Assembly: GCA_002457715.1 (NCBI GenBank)
Contig: NTKN01000008.1
Coordinates: 1-32,083 of the forward strand
Reading direction: 5' to 3'
Origin: Cryomorphaceae bacterium MED-G14
Lineage (GTDB): Bacteria; Bacteroidota; Bacteroidia; Flavobacteriales; Flavobacteriaceae
DNA length: 32,083 bases
The first letter of the stretch is position 1; the number at the start of each line of letters is the position of its first letter. The translations under genes and the position numbers were made by a program. The notes beneath the pieces were generated by a model, which saw only the letters and a program-made list of their open reading frames with translations, searched no databases and was not told the origin of the DNA. Shown here one piece after another: positions 16,674 to 31,091 of the stretch.

Positions 16674-19112
16674 ATGTCTAAAAATCTTGTAATTGTAGAA
16701 TCACCTGCTAAAGCTAAAACAATTGAAAAATTTCTAGGCAATGATTTCAAGGTTGTTTCTAGTAATGGTCATATCTCAGATTTACCCTCAAATGAGTTAG
16801 GTATTAATGTCGACGAAAACTATGCCCCTAAATACATTGTATCAAAAGATAAAAAAGATATTGTTAAAAAATTAAAAAGTGAAGTTAAAAAAGTAGAAAC
16901 TGTTTGGCTGGCAAGTGATGAAGATAGAGAAGGAGAGGCTATTGCTTGGCACCTACAAGAATCATTAAAATTAGATGAGAGTAATACTAAACGAATCGTC
17001 TTTAGAGAAATTACTGAAGATGCAATTAAAAAAGCTATAACGCGCCCGAGGAAAATTGATAAATCTTTAGTTGATGCTCAGCAAGCAAGAAGAATTTTAG
17101 ACAGGTTGGTGGGATATAAAATATCTCCCATCCTATGGCGAAAAGTAAAGGGTGGATTATCAGCTGGTCGAGTTCAATCTGTAGCTCTTAGATTGATTGC
17201 AGATCGCGAAAAAGAGATAAATCTTTTTAAATCTGATGAAACATTTAAAATATCTGGATTATTTTCTACATCTGAAAACAAACTTTTTAAAGCTAAAATT
17301 CAGAAAAACCTTAGTTATGATAAACATTTTAAATCATTTTTAAATAATTTTATTAATTCAGTATTTTCAATCCAATCAGTAACAAAAAAACCTACAGAAA
17401 AAAAGCCCACACCACCATTTACAACATCAACTTTGCAACAGGAAGCTTCTAGGAAATTAGGATTTTCAGTCTCAAGAACAATGTCTGCAGCACAAAAACT
17501 TTACGAACAAGGTTACATTACATACATGCGAACCGACAGTGTCAATTTATCAGACCAAGCAATTAGTTCAATAAAAAAAACAGTTGTTAAAAATTTTGGT
17601 GAAAAGTATTTTACCCAAAGAAATTATAAGAATAAAAATAAAGGTGCACAAGAAGCACATGAAGCAGTCAGACCTACAAATTTTTCAGTAGACAATTTAG
17701 TTGTAGATTATGATCAAGCAAAGCTATATAGCCTTATATGGAAAAGGACTGTATCCTCTCAAATGTCAAATGCTAAACTCGATAAAACAATAATAAAAAT
17801 TAAATCTTCAAAACATCATGAGTTATTTCATGCTGATGGTGAAGTTGTTAAATTTGATGGTTTTTTAAAATTATATATTGAGTCTAAGGATAATGTTTCT
17901 GATGAAGATGAAAATGAGTTATTGCCTGATTTGAAACAGGGTGAAATTATTACAAAAAATAAAATTATAGCTACCCAATACTTTTCAAAACCACCATTCA
18001 GATTTTCTGAGGCTACACTTGTAAAAAAACTTGAAGAACTTGGAATTGGAAGGCCATCTACTTATGCTCCAACCATATCAACTATAATCAATAGAAAATA
18101 TGTTTACAAAGGTGACTCGGCAGGTTCTTCTAGGGACTTAATACAATTTATAATAAAAGAAAGTCTCGAAGAATTAACTATTAAAGAAAATTTTGGATCA
18201 AACAAAGGAAAATTAGTTCCAAGTGAAGTAGGTCAACTAGTGAATGATTTTTTAACAAATAACTTTAGTAATATTATTGATTACAATTTTACTGCTTCAG
18301 TAGAAGATGATTTTGATTCAATTGCTAATGGTGAGAAGGATTGGCAATCTATAATTGATAGTTTTTATAATCCTTTTAACACAAAAGTTGATGATGTAAG
18401 TAAAAATGCCAAAAGAGAAACAGGTGAAAGAATTTTAGGTGAAGATCCAAAAACAGGAAGACAATTAAGTGTTAAGCTAGGCAAGTTTGGTCCAATAGCA
18501 CAAATTGGTAAAAATGATGATGAAGAAAAACCAATATTTGCTAGTCTCCTTCCTGAACAACAAATAGGTAAAATTAAATTTGAAGAAGCTATTAAATTAT
18601 TTGATTTACCAATTTATTTAGGTGATTATGAATCAGATAAGGTTGAAGCTAATATCGGGAGATATGGTCCATATGTAAAGTATGGAAAAAAATTTATTTC
18701 AATCCCGGACGGCAGATCACCTTTCGATATCAGCTATGACCAAGCAGTTGAATTAATCAAACAAAAAAATGAAAGCGATAAACCAATCTTTATATATAAA
18801 GAATTGGGTGTTACTAAAGGTAAGGGTCGTTTTGGTCCATTTATTAAGTGGAATAATATGTTTATTAATGTTAATAAGAAATATGATTTTGACAATCTAA
18901 CTGAATCAGACTATATCGAGCTCATTGAGGATAAGATTAAAAAAGAGAAAGAAAAAGTTATTAAAAAATGGCCGGACCTAAATATTTCAGTTGAAAAAGG
19001 TAGATGGGGTAAAGTGTTTGCAATTAAAGGGAGAAAAAAAGTTCAAATTCCTAAGACAATTGATCCTCAAAGTCTTAGTCTTGACGATGTAAAAATTTTT
19101 TTAAAAAAATAG
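16674..19112 (+). CDS. topA: DNA topoisomerase I
   Basis: KNLVIVESPAKAKTIEKFLG, WLASDEDREGEAIAWHL, YITYMRTDSVNLS catalytic region, C-terminal repeats NIGRYGPYVKYGKKF and GRFGPFIKW. Confidence 0.98.
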   Translation: MSKNLVIVESPAKAKTIEKFLGNDFKVVSSNGHISDLPSNELGINVDENYAPKYIVSKDKKDIVKKLKSEVKKVETVWLASDEDREGEAIAWHLQESLKLDESNTKRIVFREITEDAIKKAITRPRKIDKSLVDAQQARRILDRLVGYKISPILWRKVKGGLSAGRVQSVALRLIADREKEINLFKSDETFKISGLFSTSENKLFKAKIQKNLSYDKHFKSFLNNFINSVFSIQSVTKKPTEKKPTPPFTTSTLQQEASRKLGFSVSRTMSAAQKLYEQGYITYMRTDSVNLSDQAISSIKKTVVKNFGEKYFTQRNYKNKNKGAQEAHEAVRPTNFSVDNLVVDYDQAKLYSLIWKRTVSSQMSNAKLDKTIIKIKSSKHHELFHADGEVVKFDGFLKLYIESKDNVSDEDENELLPDLKQGEIITKNKIIATQYFSKPPFRFSEATLVKKLEELGIGRPSTYAPTISTIINRKYVYKGDSAGSSRDLIQFIIKESLEELTIKENFGSNKGKLVPSEVGQLVNDFLTNNFSNIIDYNFTASVEDDFDSIANGEKDWQSIIDSFYNPFNTKVDDVSKNAKRETGERILGEDPKTGRQLSVKLGKFGPIAQIGKNDDEEKPIFASLLPEQQIGKIKFEEAIKLFDLPIYLGDYESDKVEANIGRYGPYVKYGKKFISIPDGRSPFDISYDQAVELIKQKNESDKPIFIYKELGVTKGKGRFGPFIKWNNMFINVNKKYDFDNLTESDYIELIEDKIKKEKEKVIKKWPDLNISVEKGRWGKVFAIKGRKKVQIPKTIDPQSLSLDDVKIFLKK

Positions 19113-19118
19113 TTTAGT

Positions 19119-20228
19119 TTGTTAGATCAATACTTTACAGAACCCAGTCAAAAAATTTTAGAATTTAGAAATACAGTTGAAACCTCAACAATAGGTAGAA
19201 ACATAAAAATTTTTGGAATTGATAATTTTGAAATTAATAAAGATTATTCTGTTGCGATATTTTCATTAAATGGAGATCAAGAATCAGAAAAGTTTAGAGA
19301 GTTATTTTATTCTTTTAGCTATAGTAGTTGGAAAATTAAAATTATTGATTTTGGAATACTTAAACGCGGATACTCAGAAACTGACACCAAGTTTGCAATA
19401 GAGGAAATAATTGACAGACTATCATCATTTGGAATATTAGTTATTTGTGTTGGAGGTAATTCAGCTTTAACTAATACTGTTTGTGATGCATTAAAGGATA
19501 ATTTTGATTATTTAAACATTGTTTCAGTTGACAAGCTTATTGGTATTAACGATCATAAAAATTCTATCGACAATAATAATTATTTGTCTCATTTAATCAC
19601 GAATGACAATTCAAAACTTAATTTTTTTTGTAACATTGGATACTTACGACACTTAAATCAAATTGAAAAAATTGACCTTGTAAAAAAAATAAATTTTGAT
19701 TTATTTAGTTTAGGGGATTTAAGAAGTAATTTTGATGAAGTTGAACCTATATTAAGAGACGCGAATATATTAAATTTTAGTCTAGAAAGTCTCCAATCAA
19801 ATATTATTAATTTTAAATTAACATCCCCAAATGGTCTTTCCGCACACGAAGCATGCAAATTATCAAGATATGCAGGATTAAGTTCTAGTATGAAAGTTGT
19901 AATGTTTGGAAATGTGAAAAGTACATTAGAATGCAACTATATTTTATCAGAAATCGTTTGGTACACAATTGAAGGATATAATAACCGTCATATGGATGAT
20001 TTCTCAAAAGATCATGATTTTAATTACTATAACATCGAAGTGGATGGACATAACCTAAGATTTTATCAGAACAAGATTAGTAACCGTTGGTGGGTTGAGT
20101 ATGTTGATAAACTAATGGTATCTTATAAAAAAGACATAATTCCATGCTCAAAAAATGATTATAAATTAGCTCAGAGCTCCATAATTTCTGATAGAATAAT
20201 TAAAAGATTAAAGAACAAGATTATATGA
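19119..20228 (+). CDS. Arginase/formimidoylglutamase-fold protein with degenerate metal-binding motifs
   Basis: Overall arginase-family layout (ILVICVGGNSALTNTVCDAL, LNIVSVDKLIGIND, NFSLESLQSNIIN, EACKLSRYAGLSSSMKVVMFGN, IVWYTIEGYNNR). TTG start at 19119. Confidence 0.7.
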   Translation: MLDQYFTEPSQKILEFRNTVETSTIGRNIKIFGIDNFEINKDYSVAIFSLNGDQESEKFRELFYSFSYSSWKIKIIDFGILKRGYSETDTKFAIEEIIDRLSSFGILVICVGGNSALTNTVCDALKDNFDYLNIVSVDKLIGINDHKNSIDNNNYLSHLITNDNSKLNFFCNIGYLRHLNQIEKIDLVKKINFDLFSLGDLRSNFDEVEPILRDANILNFSLESLQSNIINFKLTSPNGLSAHEACKLSRYAGLSSSMKVVMFGNVKSTLECNYILSEIVWYTIEGYNNRHMDDFSKDHDFNYYNIEVDGHNLRFYQNKISNRWWVEYVDKLMVSYKKDIIPCSKNDYKLAQSSIISDRIIKRLKNKII

Positions 20229-20281: not shown

Positions 20282-21697
20282 ATGTCTGTGAAAAAATTGT
20301 TGTTTATTTTTATTACTTTATTATTTTTCATCTCATGCTCTAAAAGTGATAGAGGTGAATTAATTGGTGTAAAATCCAATAAATTTTTTCCTACTCAACC
20401 AAAAGGTATGGTTTTGATTCCCTCTGGATCTTTTACAATGGGGCCCTCATATCCAAATGCTTCTCTAGAACAAAACCCAACACTAAAAACTGTTTCTATC
20501 AAAGCATTTTACATGGACGAAACTGAAATAACAAACAGCGAATATAGACAGTTTGTTAACTGGGTAAGAGATTCTGTTGTTAGGCATGAAATTGCAAAGG
20601 CAGCTTATGAAAAAATTGGAGAGGAATTTTCTGAGGACGATCCATTATGGGAGTTCATGCCAATATACAATAGAATTGAAGATGGTGATGAAAAATCAGC
20701 CTATCAAGAATATCTGGAAGAGAATGGTCTAGGTATTTTAGATATTGAAGATAAATCAACTTATCGTTTAAATTGGGATAATAAAATATCCTGGGATAGG
20801 TCAGATTATTTAGATGCTAATTATGCTGCCATTTTAGAAGGTGGTATAGGACCGGACTTATTGGAAGATTATGAAGGGTTTTTTATACCTGCAGATTCAA
20901 CCCCAAATGGATTAAGAGCATTTAAAACAAAAAGAATTAAATATAGTTTTCGTGAGTTTGATTTAGAAAAAAATAAATGGAGTGATTATAAAGAAATTGA
21001 AGTTTATCCAGATACAACTGTATGGTATAAAGACTTTAATTATAGTTATAATGAACCAATGCACAATGATTATTTTTGGCATGATGCATACTCTGATTAT
21101 CCTGTTGTAGGTGTATCATGGGAACAAGCCAAAGCATTTGCAGATTGGAGAACATTCTATAAAAATCAGCATAATAGAAAAAAGAAAAAAGACATTCAAC
21201 TTGTAAGTAGATATAGATTACCAACTGAAGCTGAGTGGGAATATGCTGCAAGAGGTGGAATTGAAAGAGCTGAATATCCTTGGGGAGGCCCTTACACTTA
21301 TGATGAAAAGGGATGCTTCCTGGCAAATTTTAAGCCTGAACGTGGTGATTATGCTGCTGATCAAATATTATATACTGCTGAAGCAGAGTCTTATTGGCCA
21401 AATGATTATGGACTTTACAATATGTCAGGAAATGTATCTGAGTGGACAGACTCTAATTATGAAAAATCAGCAAATGATTTTGTTGCTGGAATAAATCCTA
21501 ATATTGAAGGTGATAATAATAATTCAAGAAAAGTAGTTAGGGGAGGATCCTGGAAAGATGTTGCACATTTTTTAAAAGTATCTACCAGAGATTATGAATA
21601 TCAAAACAAAAAAAGATCTTACATTGGATTCAGAACTGTACAAAGTTATCTAGGAGAAGATGTTGGTTTTCAAGAAAATCCAAATAAAATATTTTAA
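20282..21697 (+). CDS. gldK: Gliding motility / T9SS outer-membrane lipoprotein GldK
   Basis: Likely ATG at 20282 (MSVKKLLFIFITLLFFISCSK lipoprotein signal) rather than 20225; FGE-like domain (IPSGSFTMG, RLPTEAEWEYAARGG, YNMSGNVSEWT, VVRGGSWKD); followed by gldLMN. Confidence 0.95.
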   Translation: MSVKKLLFIFITLLFFISCSKSDRGELIGVKSNKFFPTQPKGMVLIPSGSFTMGPSYPNASLEQNPTLKTVSIKAFYMDETEITNSEYRQFVNWVRDSVVRHEIAKAAYEKIGEEFSEDDPLWEFMPIYNRIEDGDEKSAYQEYLEENGLGILDIEDKSTYRLNWDNKISWDRSDYLDANYAAILEGGIGPDLLEDYEGFFIPADSTPNGLRAFKTKRIKYSFREFDLEKNKWSDYKEIEVYPDTTVWYKDFNYSYNEPMHNDYFWHDAYSDYPVVGVSWEQAKAFADWRTFYKNQHNRKKKKDIQLVSRYRLPTEAEWEYAARGGIERAEYPWGGPYTYDEKGCFLANFKPERGDYAADQILYTAEAESYWPNDYGLYNMSGNVSEWTDSNYEKSANDFVAGINPNIEGDNNNSRKVVRGGSWKDVAHFLKVSTRDYEYQNKKRSYIGFRTVQSYLGEDVGFQENPNKIF

Positions 21698-21706
21698 ATT
21701 ACTTAC

Positions 21707-22306
21707 ATGAAAAAAATAAAAACTAAAAAGAAATTTCTTCCAGATAATGTTATTGAGTTAATGTTTGGACTTGGTGCATCAATTGTTATAATTGGAGCTC
21801 TTTTAAAAATCACTCATCAGGATCTTGGACCAATAACAGGAGATTTAATGTTATCTGTGGGATTAATAACTGAGGCAATAATTTTTGGTATTTCTGGTGT
21901 ACAAGGTTATTTTACTGGAGATTCATCTGTAGAAGACAAAGGTTTGCAAACTATTGAAGCAGAAACACAAAATCTTCAAAGTGCCGTTGACGAAACAGTT
22001 GCAGGCTTATCTGCATTAAATAATAATTTATCTAGTGCTGCTAAAGCTACATCTGCTTTTGTAATTCCCAAAGACATGAGTGAAAATATGAGCACATACA
22101 ATACAAATCTAGCAGGTGCTGCAAAAAAAGTTAAAGATATTAACTTATTATATGATTCACTTAGCTCTAATTTATCAGAAATCAATTCATCAACAGGTTC
22201 TATGAATATTCCAGAAGGTTTAGGTGAAGAGTTAACTAAAATGAAACAAACTATCAATGAGCTTAATGCAAAATATGCAGCTATGCTTCAAGGGATGAAG
22301 AATTAA
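21707..22306 (+). CDS. gldL: T9SS inner-membrane protein GldL
   Basis: DNVIELMFGLGASIVIIGALLKITHQDLGPITGDLMLSVGLITEAIIFGISG; two TM helices; between gldK and gldM. Confidence 0.94.
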   Translation: MKKIKTKKKFLPDNVIELMFGLGASIVIIGALLKITHQDLGPITGDLMLSVGLITEAIIFGISGVQGYFTGDSSVEDKGLQTIEAETQNLQSAVDETVAGLSALNNNLSSAAKATSAFVIPKDMSENMSTYNTNLAGAAKKVKDINLLYDSLSSNLSEINSSTGSMNIPEGLGEELTKMKQTINELNAKYAAMLQGMKN

Positions 22307-22309
22307 TTT

Positions 22310-24031
22310 ATGGCAGGAGAAAAGACTAATACTAGACAAAAAATGATAAACATGATGTATCTCGTGTTTATTGCAATGTTAGCATTAAATATTGATAAGG
22401 AAGTTCTTGCAACTATTGGAGTTATCAATGAAGATTTAGAAACCAGCGTAGAACAACTTTCTGGTGATAATGTAATAAAGTATGCAACAATCGATAACCT
22501 TCAGTCACAGCCTGAATATCAAATTGTCTACCCATATGTTCAAGATCTAAAAGAAATATCTAGCAACTATTTCAATTACATTAAGGACTTAAAAAGCAGT
22601 ATTTTGGATAGTGATAAAGAGGGAACTAGCTATGTTAGAAACATTAAAAATAAATCAAATTCAGATAAACCTGATCAAGTTATGATCGATTATCAGGTAA
22701 TGGATAAATCAGGTCCCCTTGATGAACTATTTTTTGAAAGGTCAACACTTTTACCTGAAGGTGAAACTTATAGAAACAATTTTATAGCTTTCAGAAGAGA
22801 TGTTAAATCAATTATTGATAGTATCAAGATTAATGATCCAAAGTATTTGTCAGATAAAATAGCATTAACAAATCTAGAAAGCGTACTTAATGACTTAGAT
22901 TCAAGATTTGAATATCCTGATGATGGAAAAAAATTAAATAGTAATGGTAATGAATTGGATTTCATGGATTATGAATTTAAAGGTTTTCCACTTGTTGCAT
23001 CATTATCAAAAATGACTAAGACTCAGAATAATATTAGATATATTGAGAATAAATTGCTTTCAGTTATTCTTGGTGAAATTGCTGTTGCAACAACTGGTGG
23101 AGGTGTTTTACAGGCTTATTTGAAAACACCTAAAGCCCAATATTTTTCAGGTGAAGTTTTTGATGGTAGTATTATCATGGGTCAAAAATCTTCATCTTTT
23201 GCATTTGAAGATCAAGACATTAAGTTAACATTCCCAGGATCAAATCAAGCTAGAGATCTATTAGAAGGCTCAGATTATGAAATTTCTGAGGGTCAAATTA
23301 TATTCAAAAAAAGATTAACCCAAACTGGTAGTTATAAGTTGTCAGGTTCCGTTACTAAATTGGATGATAGAAATGTTACCACTATACCAATTAATGAGGA
23401 GTTTTCAATCATTGAAAAACCTTCTACGGCAACAGTTGAGGCAGTCAGAATGAACATATTGTATGAGGGTTTGAAAAATCCTGTAAATGTTGTTTTGCCA
23501 GGAGCTGTTCAATTAAGTCAATATAATAGCCAAGACTCTAATGTAACTCTTGCTTCAACAAATATTCCTGGTGCTAATTTTACTGCAAAACCTCTCCCAG
23601 GCTCGACAGAAGCATTTATTCAGGTAAGAGGTATAGTTAATGGTCAGCCAGCTATATCAGAACCTAAATTATTTAGAGTTAAGAAAGCTCCTGACGGAGT
23701 TGGCGCAATAGAGAACGATCAATCATACCCGTCTGGATCTACAGTTACCCAGTTTAACATATTGAATGGACAAGTAACTGGTTATAAACCTGTTGATTTT
23801 GATTATGAATTTAACGTAGAGGTTACTAGATTTATTATCAGTGTTGGGATTAATCAAGCGCTCACAATTGAAGGTAATTTTATTGAAGGATTAGCGGAAG
23901 ATTATATTAGACAATCTCCCCCAGGAACACCTATCGTTTTTTCAAGTATTGAGGCTATTGGCTGGGAAGGTACTGACAGGAGTGAGGCATTTAAATATAA
24001 TGTAAATGATTTTACAATTAGAAAACAATAA
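22310..24031 (+). CDS. gldM: T9SS/gliding motor protein GldM
   Basis: MAGEKTNTRQKMINMMYLVFIAMLALNIDKEVLATI N-terminus and gldKLMN order. Confidence 0.95.
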   Translation: MAGEKTNTRQKMINMMYLVFIAMLALNIDKEVLATIGVINEDLETSVEQLSGDNVIKYATIDNLQSQPEYQIVYPYVQDLKEISSNYFNYIKDLKSSILDSDKEGTSYVRNIKNKSNSDKPDQVMIDYQVMDKSGPLDELFFERSTLLPEGETYRNNFIAFRRDVKSIIDSIKINDPKYLSDKIALTNLESVLNDLDSRFEYPDDGKKLNSNGNELDFMDYEFKGFPLVASLSKMTKTQNNIRYIENKLLSVILGEIAVATTGGGVLQAYLKTPKAQYFSGEVFDGSIIMGQKSSSFAFEDQDIKLTFPGSNQARDLLEGSDYEISEGQIIFKKRLTQTGSYKLSGSVTKLDDRNVTTIPINEEFSIIEKPSTATVEAVRMNILYEGLKNPVNVVLPGAVQLSQYNSQDSNVTLASTNIPGANFTAKPLPGSTEAFIQVRGIVNGQPAISEPKLFRVKKAPDGVGAIENDQSYPSGSTVTQFNILNGQVTGYKPVDFDYEFNVEVTRFIISVGINQALTIEGNFIEGLAEDYIRQSPPGTPIVFSSIEAIGWEGTDRSEAFKYNVNDFTIRKQ

Positions 24032-24037
24032 TTTATA

Positions 24038-24922
24038 ATGAGATCTATAGCTGCTTTTTTTATTTTATTTTCAAATTTAATTTTTTCGCAAGTTGACTTA
24101 ATTAATGCAAAAAAACCTATTGATGCTGAAAAAAAATCTATAAATGAGATTACTCCTCTGGAGTATGGCACTATTGACGAAAATGATATTTTGTGGTCAA
24201 GGGTAGTATATGAATTTATAGATCTAAATGAGAAGTTAAATTTTCCTCTACTTTTTCCAACTAATGATGAACAAAATAAGATTGGTAGAAAGTCTATCTG
24301 GAGAGTTTTGAAAGAATTTATTGTCAATAAAATTGAAGAAGACCCCTCAGGAAAGAATCTTGAAATTTATAAATTCGATGAATTCTCATCTGAAGATAAA
24401 CTATCCACAAACGAAATTAAAGATTTGATGAGTTACGAATTAATTTCTAGAAAAGCTGGTACTCAGACTTTATATGTTAACTCTAATGAAATTGGTGGAT
24501 ATAATATTAAAGGAATATGGTATTTTGATAAGAAATACTCAGAATTAAAATATAGATTATTAGGTATTCAACCTGTTGGGGCCAATACTGAGGATTTAAA
24601 AAATGGTGTTCAGAATCCTAATTTAGGGTCCCCTTATTTTTGGATATGGTATCCATCAGTTAGAGAAGAATTAAATAATCATTTAGTTTTCAATGATAGA
24701 AATACTAATAATAGAATATCATTTGATGATTTATTAATAAACAGAAGATTTAGTTCGTTTATTTATAAATATAACAATTTATATGGTGACAGAGAAATTA
24801 AGGACTACATTAAACAAAGGCCAGGAGAATCAAAACAACAACATAACCTTAGAATAATTCTTGAATCAGAAAGAATCAAAAAAGAAATTCTTGATTTTGA
24901 ATTAGATATGTGGGGATATTAG
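24038..24922 (+). CDS. gldN: T9SS/gliding protein GldN
   Basis: Signal peptide, LEYGTIDENDILWSRVVYEFIDLNEKLNFPLLFP, RKSIWRVLKE; directly follows gldM. Confidence 0.94.
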   Translation: MRSIAAFFILFSNLIFSQVDLINAKKPIDAEKKSINEITPLEYGTIDENDILWSRVVYEFIDLNEKLNFPLLFPTNDEQNKIGRKSIWRVLKEFIVNKIEEDPSGKNLEIYKFDEFSSEDKLSTNEIKDLMSYELISRKAGTQTLYVNSNEIGGYNIKGIWYFDKKYSELKYRLLGIQPVGANTEDLKNGVQNPNLGSPYFWIWYPSVREELNNHLVFNDRNTNNRISFDDLLINRRFSSFIYKYNNLYGDREIKDYIKQRPGESKQQHNLRIILESERIKKEILDFELDMWGY

Positions 24923-27794: not shown

Positions 27795-28018
27795 AGGTAT
27801 GTTATTAGTATTGTAAAATTAATAAAAGAAAAGATTTTTTAGTTGATATAATCCTCTTCTTTTTATTCTTATTTCTGTTTAGTTCAATATAGAGTATGAA
27901 TTTGATAGTTTAAAAGATTATTTATTTTCAAATCATAATAAATGTGAATCATAGTATTCAATCTAATCATTTTTAAAATATTTTAAATAAAGCAATAAAA
28001 AATTTGTATATTTTTTTA

Positions 28019-29500
28019 ATGAAATCAGCTAACAAATTTTTATTAATTCTATTTATAATTTTTTCATGCAAATCTGAAAATAATTATAGTCCTAATGAAA
28101 GATTGAATGTTTTGTTTATTGTAGCAGATGACTTAAATTGTGCAATAGGCGCATATGGTGATAAGCAAGCTATTACCCCAAATATTGATAAGCTTGCAAA
28201 AAATGGATTAGTTTTTACAGATGCTCACAATCAATATCCACACTGTGGACCCTCCAGAGTGTCATTTATGACTGGTTTATACCCAGATCAAACAAAATCG
28301 AAAGGATTAAGACTTTACGTTAGGCAAACTATCCCTGATGTTGTAACATTAGGTGAAAAATTGATTTCTGAAAATTATCATTCAGCAAGGGTAGGTAAAA
28401 TATATCATTATCACAATCCCAGAGATATTGGTACAGCTGGTCATGATGACCCTTTTACTTGGAACAGAACTGTTAATCCGTGGGGAAGAGATAAAAAAGA
28501 AGAACATAAAATAAATACTTTACAAGAAGGTGAATATGGGGGCACTTTAAGCTGGCTTGAAGCTGATGGAACTGATGAAGAACAAACAGATGGAATAGGA
28601 GCTAATGAAACAATTCGTTTTTTAGATGAGTTTGCTGAAAGTGGAGAAAATTTCTTTTTAGCATTTGGTTTATTTAGACCACATACACCATATGTTGCTC
28701 CAAAAAAGTATTTTGATATGTATAATATGTATGATTTTGATATTCCAGAAAGTGATGAAGAATATTTAAAAACCATCCCCATGCCAGCAGCTAGATCTGT
28801 TAGAGAAAAAAAAGTACAAAATTATTTAGATAAAGACCTTGCTAAAGAGATTAAGCGCGCATACTATGCAACCACATCCTTTGTTGATGCTCAAATTGGA
28901 AGAGTTTTGGATAAGCTTGAAGAAACGGGACTTGATAAAAATACAATAGTTATATTAACATCTGACCATGGATATCATCTTGGTGAACACGGGCATTGGC
29001 AAAAAAGAACCCTGTTTAATCACGCAACCAGAGTCCCATTAATTTTTTCAGGTCCAGGGATAAGTAATAATAAAGGAGATGTAAATGATCCAGTTGAACT
29101 TATTGATATTTACCCAACAATTATGGATGTATTAAATATGGATGCTCCAAAATTTCTCAGTGGAAAAAGTTTAAAACCTTACCTTTTGGGTGATAGAAAT
29201 CAAATTAGAAATGAGGCCCTTACTGAACTTCGTGTTTGGACACCGACTGGCCACGCACAAGGATATTCAATTAAAAGTAGAGATTATAGATTTACCAAGT
29301 GGATTCATAATGGAATTCTTGATTCTGAGCTGTATGATTTAAAATTTGATTCAGCAGAATTAAATAATTTATCAAAAGATATTTCATATCAAAAAATTAA
29401 AGATTCACTATTACAAGTTATAAATAAAAGGATTTTTGAAGCTAATTCATATCCTGAAAGCTTGGGTAGACAAATTGAAAATGCAATACCAATTAACTAA
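28019..29500 (+). CDS. Secreted lipoprotein sulfatase, iduronate-2-sulfatase-like
   Basis: True start probably ATG at 28019 (MKSANKFLLILFIIFSCKS lipobox) rather than TTG 28004; NVLFIVADDLNC, Cys-type motif HCGPSRVSFMTGLYP, SDHGYHLGEHGHWQK. Confidence 0.93.
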   Translation: MKSANKFLLILFIIFSCKSENNYSPNERLNVLFIVADDLNCAIGAYGDKQAITPNIDKLAKNGLVFTDAHNQYPHCGPSRVSFMTGLYPDQTKSKGLRLYVRQTIPDVVTLGEKLISENYHSARVGKIYHYHNPRDIGTAGHDDPFTWNRTVNPWGRDKKEEHKINTLQEGEYGGTLSWLEADGTDEEQTDGIGANETIRFLDEFAESGENFFLAFGLFRPHTPYVAPKKYFDMYNMYDFDIPESDEEYLKTIPMPAARSVREKKVQNYLDKDLAKEIKRAYYATTSFVDAQIGRVLDKLEETGLDKNTIVILTSDHGYHLGEHGHWQKRTLFNHATRVPLIFSGPGISNNKGDVNDPVELIDIYPTIMDVLNMDAPKFLSGKSLKPYLLGDRNQIRNEALTELRVWTPTGHAQGYSIKSRDYRFTKWIHNGILDSELYDLKFDSAELNNLSKDISYQKIKDSLLQVINKRIFEANSYPESLGRQIENAIPIN

Positions 29501-29510
29501 AATAATTCAA

Positions 29511-31091
29511 ATGAAAAATTCCATTAAAATTTTAATTCTGATATTAATTACTTTTTCTTGTGAAACAAAAAAACCAGATATTAACAATGATAATTTAAAT
29601 GTTCTATTTATCATGGCTGACGACCTAAATTGTGACCTTGGATCATATGGTCATCCACAAGTTATAAGTCCAAATATTGATAAATTAGCTAACAGTGGAG
29701 TATTATTTGAAAATGCACATAACCAATTCCCACTATGTGGACCCTCCAGAGTTTCATTGATGACAGGTATGTATTCTGATCAGACTATGCATACTCAACT
29801 TGATATAGATTTGAGGCAAACTATCCCTGACGTAGTAACATTAGGTCAGAGATATAGACAAAGAGGCTATAAATCTGTTAGAATAGGTAAGATTTACCAT
29901 TATGGCAATCCTGGAACAATAGGATCATCTGGTCAAGATGATATAACAACTTGGGATTACACTATAAACCCTTATGGAAGAGATAAAGATGAAGAATATA
30001 AAATCAATACGTTAAGACCAAGACAATATGGTGGAACTTTAAGTTGGTTATCAGCAGAGGGAAAAGATGAGGAGCAAACGGATGGAATTGGGGCAACTGA
30101 AGCGATTGAACAATTAGAAAAATTTTCCAAGAATGGTCAAAATTTCTTCTTAGCCGTAGGAATGTTCAGGCCTCATACTCCTTTTGTGGCCCCAAAAAAA
30201 TATTTTGATATGTATGAAATGGATGAAATGGAAATTCCCTACGATGGAAGTAGTGATGAATACTTAAGTACAATTCCTATTCCTGCAGCAATTTCAGTAA
30301 GATGGAAAAAAGATCAAATTCTTTTAAATGATAAATCAAATCATAAACTTGCTCAGGAAATAAAAGAAGCATATTATGCAACTACTTCATTTGTAGATGC
30401 TCAAATAGGAAGAATTTTAAAAAAACTAAAGGATACAGGTCTTGATAAAAATACAATTGTGGTATTTACTTCAGATCATGGATATCATCTTGGAGAACAT
30501 GGGCATTGGCAAAAACAAACTTTATTTGATGATTCTACAAGAGTGCCTTTGATTTTTTCTGGTCCCGGTGTCACTAAAGGTGTAAGATCCAATTCACCTG
30601 TTGAATTAATTGATATTTACCCTACTTTGATGGATTTAACTAAAATTGAAACACCATCTCACGTTGTTGGAAAAAGTCTTACACCAATATTTGAAGACTC
30701 AAGCCATAAAGTTAGACGAAGTGCATTAACTAGATGGAGAGCATCACAGCATGGTAATTTAAACTTTTCAGAATCAGGAATTCAAGGTTATTCTGTAAAA
30801 ACTGAAAGATACAGATTGACTAAGTGGGGAGAAAAAGGTGAACATGGTTATGAATTTTATGATCATTCGATTGATGAAAATGAAATGAATAATATTATAA
30901 ATAATTCTAATTATATTACTATAATTGACTCTTTAAAAACTCATATTGATGAAAGAATTTCTGATGCTAGAACAAAACCTGCAGGATTAGGAAGACAATT
31001 TGAAGAAAAACGACTTCGTAAAGTTACGATGACAACTGGTGACATATATGAAATCAATGGCAAGAGAGTGAAAATGAAAACTGATGAATAA
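29511..31091 (+). CDS. Secreted lipoprotein sulfatase, iduronate-2-sulfatase-like (tandem paralog)
   Basis: ATG at 29511 (MKNSIKILILILITFSCETKK lipobox) rather than 29436; NVLFIMADDLNCDLGSYG, LCGPSRVSLMTGMYS, SDHGYHLGEHGHWQK. Confidence 0.93.
   Translation: MKNSIKILILILITFSCETKKPDINNDNLNVLFIMADDLNCDLGSYGHPQVISPNIDKLANSGVLFENAHNQFPLCGPSRVSLMTGMYSDQTMHTQLDIDLRQTIPDVVTLGQRYRQRGYKSVRIGKIYHYGNPGTIGSSGQDDITTWDYTINPYGRDKDEEYKINTLRPRQYGGTLSWLSAEGKDEEQTDGIGATEAIEQLEKFSKNGQNFFLAVGMFRPHTPFVAPKKYFDMYEMDEMEIPYDGSSDEYLSTIPIPAAISVRWKKDQILLNDKSNHKLAQEIKEAYYATTSFVDAQIGRILKKLKDTGLDKNTIVVFTSDHGYHLGEHGHWQKQTLFDDSTRVPLIFSGPGVTKGVRSNSPVELIDIYPTLMDLTKIETPSHVVGKSLTPIFEDSSHKVRRSALTRWRASQHGNLNFSESGIQGYSVKTERYRLTKWGEKGEHGYEFYDHSIDENEMNNIINNSNYITIIDSLKTHIDERISDARTKPAGLGRQFEEKRLRKVTMTTGDIYEINGKRVKMKTDE

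Follow-up and report, generated by a model that had tools for sequence, protein, structure and literature searches.

The window, as the whole stretch of 32,083 nucleotides analysed here is called, raises the question of what an arginase-like protein with degenerate metal-binding motifs is doing between a DNA topoisomerase gene and the core operon of the T9SS. The gene in question, referred to below as ARG, lies at 19119..20228 on the + strand and encodes a degenerate ureohydrolase-fold protein of 369 aa, an assignment that draws on the list of open reading frames, a family alignment (A1), an AlphaFold model and Foldseek. It opens with a TTG codon, a start that the two closest relatives share with it at 94% and 89% identity, and a contig search for near-identical relatives returned two only. 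No hydrophobic N-terminal signal is evident in the product, which is thus presumably cytoplasmic. The preceding gene, topA (DNA topoisomerase I; 16674..19112, +; Pfam/NCBIfam), stops 6 bp before the start of ARG. On the other side, the open reading frame of gldK, which encodes the T9SS ring lipoprotein (TIGR03525, 520 bits), opens at 20225 and overlaps the stop of ARG, with the lipoprotein signal MSVKKLLFIFITLLFFISC suggesting that the gene itself starts at 20282 (20282..21697, +). It is followed, likewise on the + strand, by gldL (21707..22306; TIGR03513, 69.4 bits against a cut-off of 68.3), gldM (22310..24031; TIGR03517), and gldN (24038..24922; TIGR03523). GldL is short (199 aa) and barely exceeds its cut-off, so the T9SS motor protein of the window lineage is divergent. 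A scan of the other ORFs of the window gave no match to hut genes, whose absence a preliminary description of this DNA had stated. Beyond an aconitase gene, two arylsulfatase/choline-sulfatase-like genes are found in tandem (28004-31091).

Taken alone, the sequence of the window protein provides weak evidence for the arginase fold, with a score against Pfam PF00491 of 11.8 bits (E 0.17), which is below the threshold of 22, a best PDB sequence match to a guanidinobutyrase at E 0.027, and no match to the NCBIfam models, the HutG model TIGR01227 included. The fold becomes clear through the relatives, many of which exceed the PF00491 cut-off. In A1, which comprises 30 ARG family sequences, PF00491 is matched by 29 members (best E 1.7e-25), TIGR01227 is matched by 27 of 30 relatives at E values of up to 1 (best 7.3e-28), and the family profile retrieves agmatinase and formimidoylglutamase from among the solved structures at E of about 1e-10. 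Modelled with AlphaFold2, as the preliminary description had proposed, the window protein is predicted to adopt the three-layer arginase fold (pLDDT 84, pTM 0.88), and a Foldseek search of the PDB with this model gives metformin hydrolase (8x3g) as the top match, along with formimidoylglutamase (3m1r), at a TM of about 0.6 and E of 1e-12. The arginase/formimidoylglutamase layout that had been claimed for the protein is thereby borne out.

The six Mn-ligand positions, H101, D124, H126, D128, D232, and D234 in arginase numbering, are occupied in the window protein by S115, D138, L140, G142, S221, and E223, as placed by alignment with true ureohydrolases, meaning that one of the six ligands is kept (D138, at the D124 position) and five are lost. 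The first former motif, GGNSA at 19452..19466 (+; canonical GGxHS), has S115 at the H101 position according to the same alignment; the second, DKLIG at 19530..19544 (+; canonical DAHxD), keeps D138 while H126 and D128 have become L140 and G142; and in the third, SLE at 19779..19787 (+; canonical DxD), D232 and D234 have become S221 and E223. The preliminary description had quoted the letters of these motifs correctly, although its claim that each of them was completely lost is slightly overstated, as D138 remains. The possibility that the Mn ligands are present at shifted positions was ruled out by the alignment with 16 real ureohydrolases. The close relatives L031 and L032 likewise retain only the Asp at the D124 position, with a possible His in L032 that depends on the alignment.

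The same positions were compared in 92 ARG family members and in a set of 16 ureohydrolases that belong to the same phylum. The full H-D-H-D-D-D set is found in 13 of the 16 real ureohydrolases, the other three deviating at one position each, and among the ARG members four ligands are retained in 13, three in 61, two in 8, and one in 10, with none of the 92 keeping five or six. The binuclear site, for which a family alignment had been suggested as a check, is thus missing in all of the aligned members. The commonest pattern in the family is Q101, D124, K/R126, D128, D232, and S/N/G at 234: the H101 position carries Q in 63 of 92 members and keeps its H in 13, H126 and D234 are gone almost throughout, replaced by K or R (64 of 92) and by S/N/G, respectively, and D124, D128, and D232 are present in most members. 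The loss of the site across ARG members indicates that it is old and common to the family, and that the window lineage, which sits on a long branch of the family tree, went further; family f5 (L079-L081) is as degenerate at the ligand positions as the window protein. It could be argued that ARG is still an enzyme, which would act on a guanidino or formimino substrate with a rearranged or single-metal site, given that the three Asp persist in most members and H101 in some, and that an Asn at the H101 position, as in the formimidoylglutamases of T. cruzi and B. subtilis, is not fatal by itself. Such an activity is nevertheless very improbable in view of the nearly family-wide replacement of H126 and D234, and of the fact that the window lineage and family f5 have lost nearly all of the other ligands while still keeping ARG. 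Where four ligands are kept, weak metal binding may be possible. Of the 64 members with K/R126, 55 keep the full trio of Asp, as compared with 11 of the 21 that have neither K/R126 nor a basic residue at 101 (counts uncorrected for relatedness), and this association suggests that the basic side chain among the three kept Asp may replace the charge of the metal by forming an internal salt bridge, and that the old pocket may survive in typical members as a structural core.

The ARG family is a previously undescribed family of arginase-fold proteins whose catalytic metal site was lost long ago. In a quick tree of 92 rows, 76 from the ARG family and 16 from real ureohydrolases, the two sets are split with an SH-aLRT of 100, making the family monophyletic, with some long branches inside it, and it co-occurs with real ureohydrolases within the same genomes. 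The aligned members share a C-terminal domain of approximately 70 residues with the signature FYKSxxSxRWWxExP...PCxxxDYxxA...IPxRW, which is found in none of the 16 real ureohydrolases and which in the window protein spans about residues 299-369 (20013..20225, +). In the AlphaFold model of one relative this domain is predicted to consist of four strands and two helices (pLDDT 92). Its comparison with the PDB and Pfam gave nothing credible, so that a binding role for it is one that we infer. An identity with PUR/DUF3276, to which the strand pattern and a weak Foldseek match had pointed, was not supported, with an hhalign probability of 0.2%.

The positions of the family that vary least fall in the scaffold and the C-terminal domain. 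Wherever the 76-row set shows 100% invariance, the window protein retains the residue, several of the metal-motif consensus residues being gone. The conserved scaffold and C-terminal residues that are also present in the fast-evolving window lineage (R60, Y64, D77, F193, E209, R213, W281, F315, W324, C343) may form a functional binding surface. In the window lineage ARG is undamaged and subject to purifying selection, with a full-length ORF in three genomes and dN/dS values of 0.115 and 0.110 against the two relatives, those of neighbouring genes being 0.06-0.09. A decaying pseudogene, of which the weak Pfam score and the fast branch might be taken as signs, was rejected on a dN/dS of 0.11, well below 1, and with the full-length frames and the invariant residues kept, its probability is negligible. 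The earlier suggestion that the gene is retained for a function other than that of a ureohydrolase holds, supported by this selection together with the lack of the binuclear site in 92 of 92 members, the SH-aLRT of 100, and the co-occurrence with real ureohydrolases.

Of 398 Flavobacteriales genomes, 310 have ARG. A profile search detected it in 160 of 168 genomes sampled from across Bacteroidia at a completeness of no less than 95%, with some of the lowest-scoring matches possibly being real ureohydrolases; GldK exceeds its cut-off in 308 and 161 genomes of the same two sets. When the ARG-negative genomes were re-searched by profile they stayed negative, bar one match in G013 that resembles a real ureohydrolase, by which the explanation of missing ARG as a search artefact was rejected. 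The usual gene order is topA-ARG-porP-gldKLMN. The first 32 loci all read topA-ARG-(porP)-gldK, with operon-like spacing between topA and ARG and with both genes on the same strand in 32 of 32. Among the matches listed, ARG lies within 4 kb of gldK in 108 of the 110 Flavobacteriales genomes in which both were placed, the remaining two having them on different contigs, and across the class 85 of 142 genomes show the linkage, as do 30 of 50 families, porP/sprF-like genes standing between ARG and gldK in many. ARG is thus genetically linked to the T9SS core operon, and the synteny survey bears out the link to the T9SS or gliding proposed in the preliminary description insofar as genomic linkage is meant. 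This linkage indicates that the need for ARG usually goes hand in hand with functions of the T9SS or the envelope. In family f5 (L079-L081), ARG is in the topA region, and in L080 and L081 it is followed by glycosyltransferase and other polysaccharide-type genes rather than gldK; three loci of family f19 (L099, L100, L102) have a shortened, N-terminally diverged ARG near gldK and a murF-like gene, the orientation being opposite.

As a statement of obligate function, however, the proposed link does not stand, the presence of ARG not being strictly tied to the T9SS. GldK is found without ARG in eight Flavobacteriales genomes (G009, G010, G012, G013, G023, G035, G046, G093), and in two of them (G012, locus L104; G010, locus L105) ARG is cleanly absent, with topA directly joined to porP-gldK or gldK. 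The two genes are separated in families f5, f17, f18, and f23, and in some families ARG is beside neither topA nor gldK. The opposite case is provided by G319, a genome of 1.3 Mb from family f16; the remaining f16 genomes tested measure 0.2-0.6 Mb and have neither ARG nor gldK. In G319, ARG is intact (386 aa, retaining 30 of the 33 near-invariant residues), as is topA, and directly after ARG (contig 4, 701000-718000; L126) comes a decaying gldKLMN operon, in which gldK is in frame-shifted pieces, gldM is an N-terminal piece, gldN is in fragments, and no gldL is detectable; elsewhere in the genome, sprA is in pieces, with stops. An intact ARG next to a dead gldKLMN, with sprA dead as well, indicates that the need is not for the T9SS alone, though it could be that ARG is retained there by lag rather than by selection. 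Three further genomes without a full GldK match (G025, G107, G075) have an intact or near-intact sprA and are therefore probably incomplete assemblies.

These data bear on two opposing readings of the gene order. In the first, ARG would be a dedicated component of the T9SS or of gliding that, in the cytoplasm, partners the GldLM motor or the GldKN ring or helps to assemble it, and that is useless without the T9SS. The nearly constant neighbourhood with gldK in Flavobacteriales speaks for it, as does a locus in which ARG-porP-gldK occurs without an adjacent topA (L067), and the presence of ARG and gldK tracks closely, down to the f16 genomes tested, which apart from G319 have neither; but the eight genomes with GldK and no ARG, the four families with separated genes, and G319 itself make so strict a dependence unlikely, if still worth considering. 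In the second, the function of ARG would belong with topA, that is, with DNA/chromosome housekeeping, its linkage to gldK being passively inherited with the operon. The two genes do remain side by side in loci that gldK has left (L080, L135) and in G319, where gldKLMN is dead, with the spacing and common strand described above, whereas L067 lacks topA, the f19 loci have ARG near gldK, and the relation of the C-terminal domain to the nucleic-acid-binding PUR is unsupported by profile comparison, so that this reading appears distinctly unlikely.

It has also to be considered that ARG might serve, as a subunit without catalysis of its own, to activate a real ureohydrolase encoded elsewhere in the genome, by analogy with MetCb, which has lost five of the six ligands and is required for the activity of MetCa (PMC11271267), and with metformin hydrolase being the top Foldseek match. 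Two genomes (G011, G486) carry ARG and no other PF00491 protein, which disfavours a partnership of this type; in the loci that were read no real ureohydrolase stands beside ARG, and the family has a C-terminal domain of its own. Taken together, such an arrangement seems improbable.

The explanation that we consider probable, with due reserve, is that ARG is a pseudoenzyme of the ureohydrolase superfamily, kept as a cytoplasmic, non-catalytic binding or scaffold protein that is linked but not restricted to the T9SS. A founder early in the class Bacteroidia would have lost the binuclear Mn site and gained the four-strand, two-helix C-terminal domain, and selection would since have kept the protein in its non-catalytic role. 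This role would be coupled to the biology of the cell envelope and the T9SS operon, which would be the reason why ARG stays beside gldK, and the one lineage that keeps it after decay of the T9SS would point to a T9SS-independent use as well. A bolder version, offered tentatively and rather doubtful as it stands, would have ARG as an overlooked cytoplasmic factor throughout Bacteroidia, built from a dead arginase fold and a new C-terminal domain, that regulates the envelope/T9SS machinery or helps to assemble it and has a second job independent of the T9SS; if true, the T9SS core operon would have had an unrecognised extra gene throughout the class.

Should the scaffold proposal be correct, a family that annotation models score as formimidoylglutamase or agmatinase would be no enzyme, which would remove a source of false metabolic annotation, and in much of Bacteroidia the T9SS core operon would nearly always have a non-enzyme family next to it. 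A large and old prokaryotic clade would join the few known ureohydrolase pseudoenzymes, and the family presents a natural series of metal-site loss, with four, three, two, or one ligand kept. In the G319 lineage, the need for ARG appears separable from the T9SS, and a direct knockout test of ARG would be easy in species with established genetics. The open-access literature searched held no papers on the ARG family, nor any linking gldK or the T9SS to an arginase or formimidoylglutamase neighbour, subscription papers being outside the scope of that search.

Among known systems, TbARG of Trypanosoma brucei was reportedly described in 2015 by Hai et al. as a protein whose arginase fold evolved with no Mn cluster. 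ARG shares with it the fold and the lack of the cluster, TbARG being a eukaryotic, single-lineage case, and we know of no C-terminal domain of the ARG kind in that protein. The HutG enzymes of B. subtilis (3m1r) and T. cruzi (4mxr) have the same fold and layout as ARG, are among its best profile and fold matches, and carry the Asn at the H101 position that is seen in a few ARG members; they differ in that their motifs 2 and 3 retain the His/Asp ligands and in that they bind metal, whereas ARG does not keep this set, has a C-terminal domain that HutG lacks, and has no hut genes nearby. MetCb/MfmB (8x3g, 8snf, 8ryi) is, like ARG, a ureohydrolase-fold pseudoenzyme, and in its clade three to five of the ligands are gone, with MetCb being needed for the activity of its partner (PMC11271267); the same paper also refers to the arginase-like protein of T. 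brucei that has no Mn cluster. In most cases a MetCb gene is paired with that of the active partner, whereas some genomes with ARG have no other ureohydrolase, and the neighbours of ARG are topA, porP, and the gld genes. The T9SS core operon porP-gldKLMN (porPKLMN) is the constant neighbour of ARG in Flavobacteriales and in many families of Bacteroidia, with a joint presence that is obligate in neither direction.
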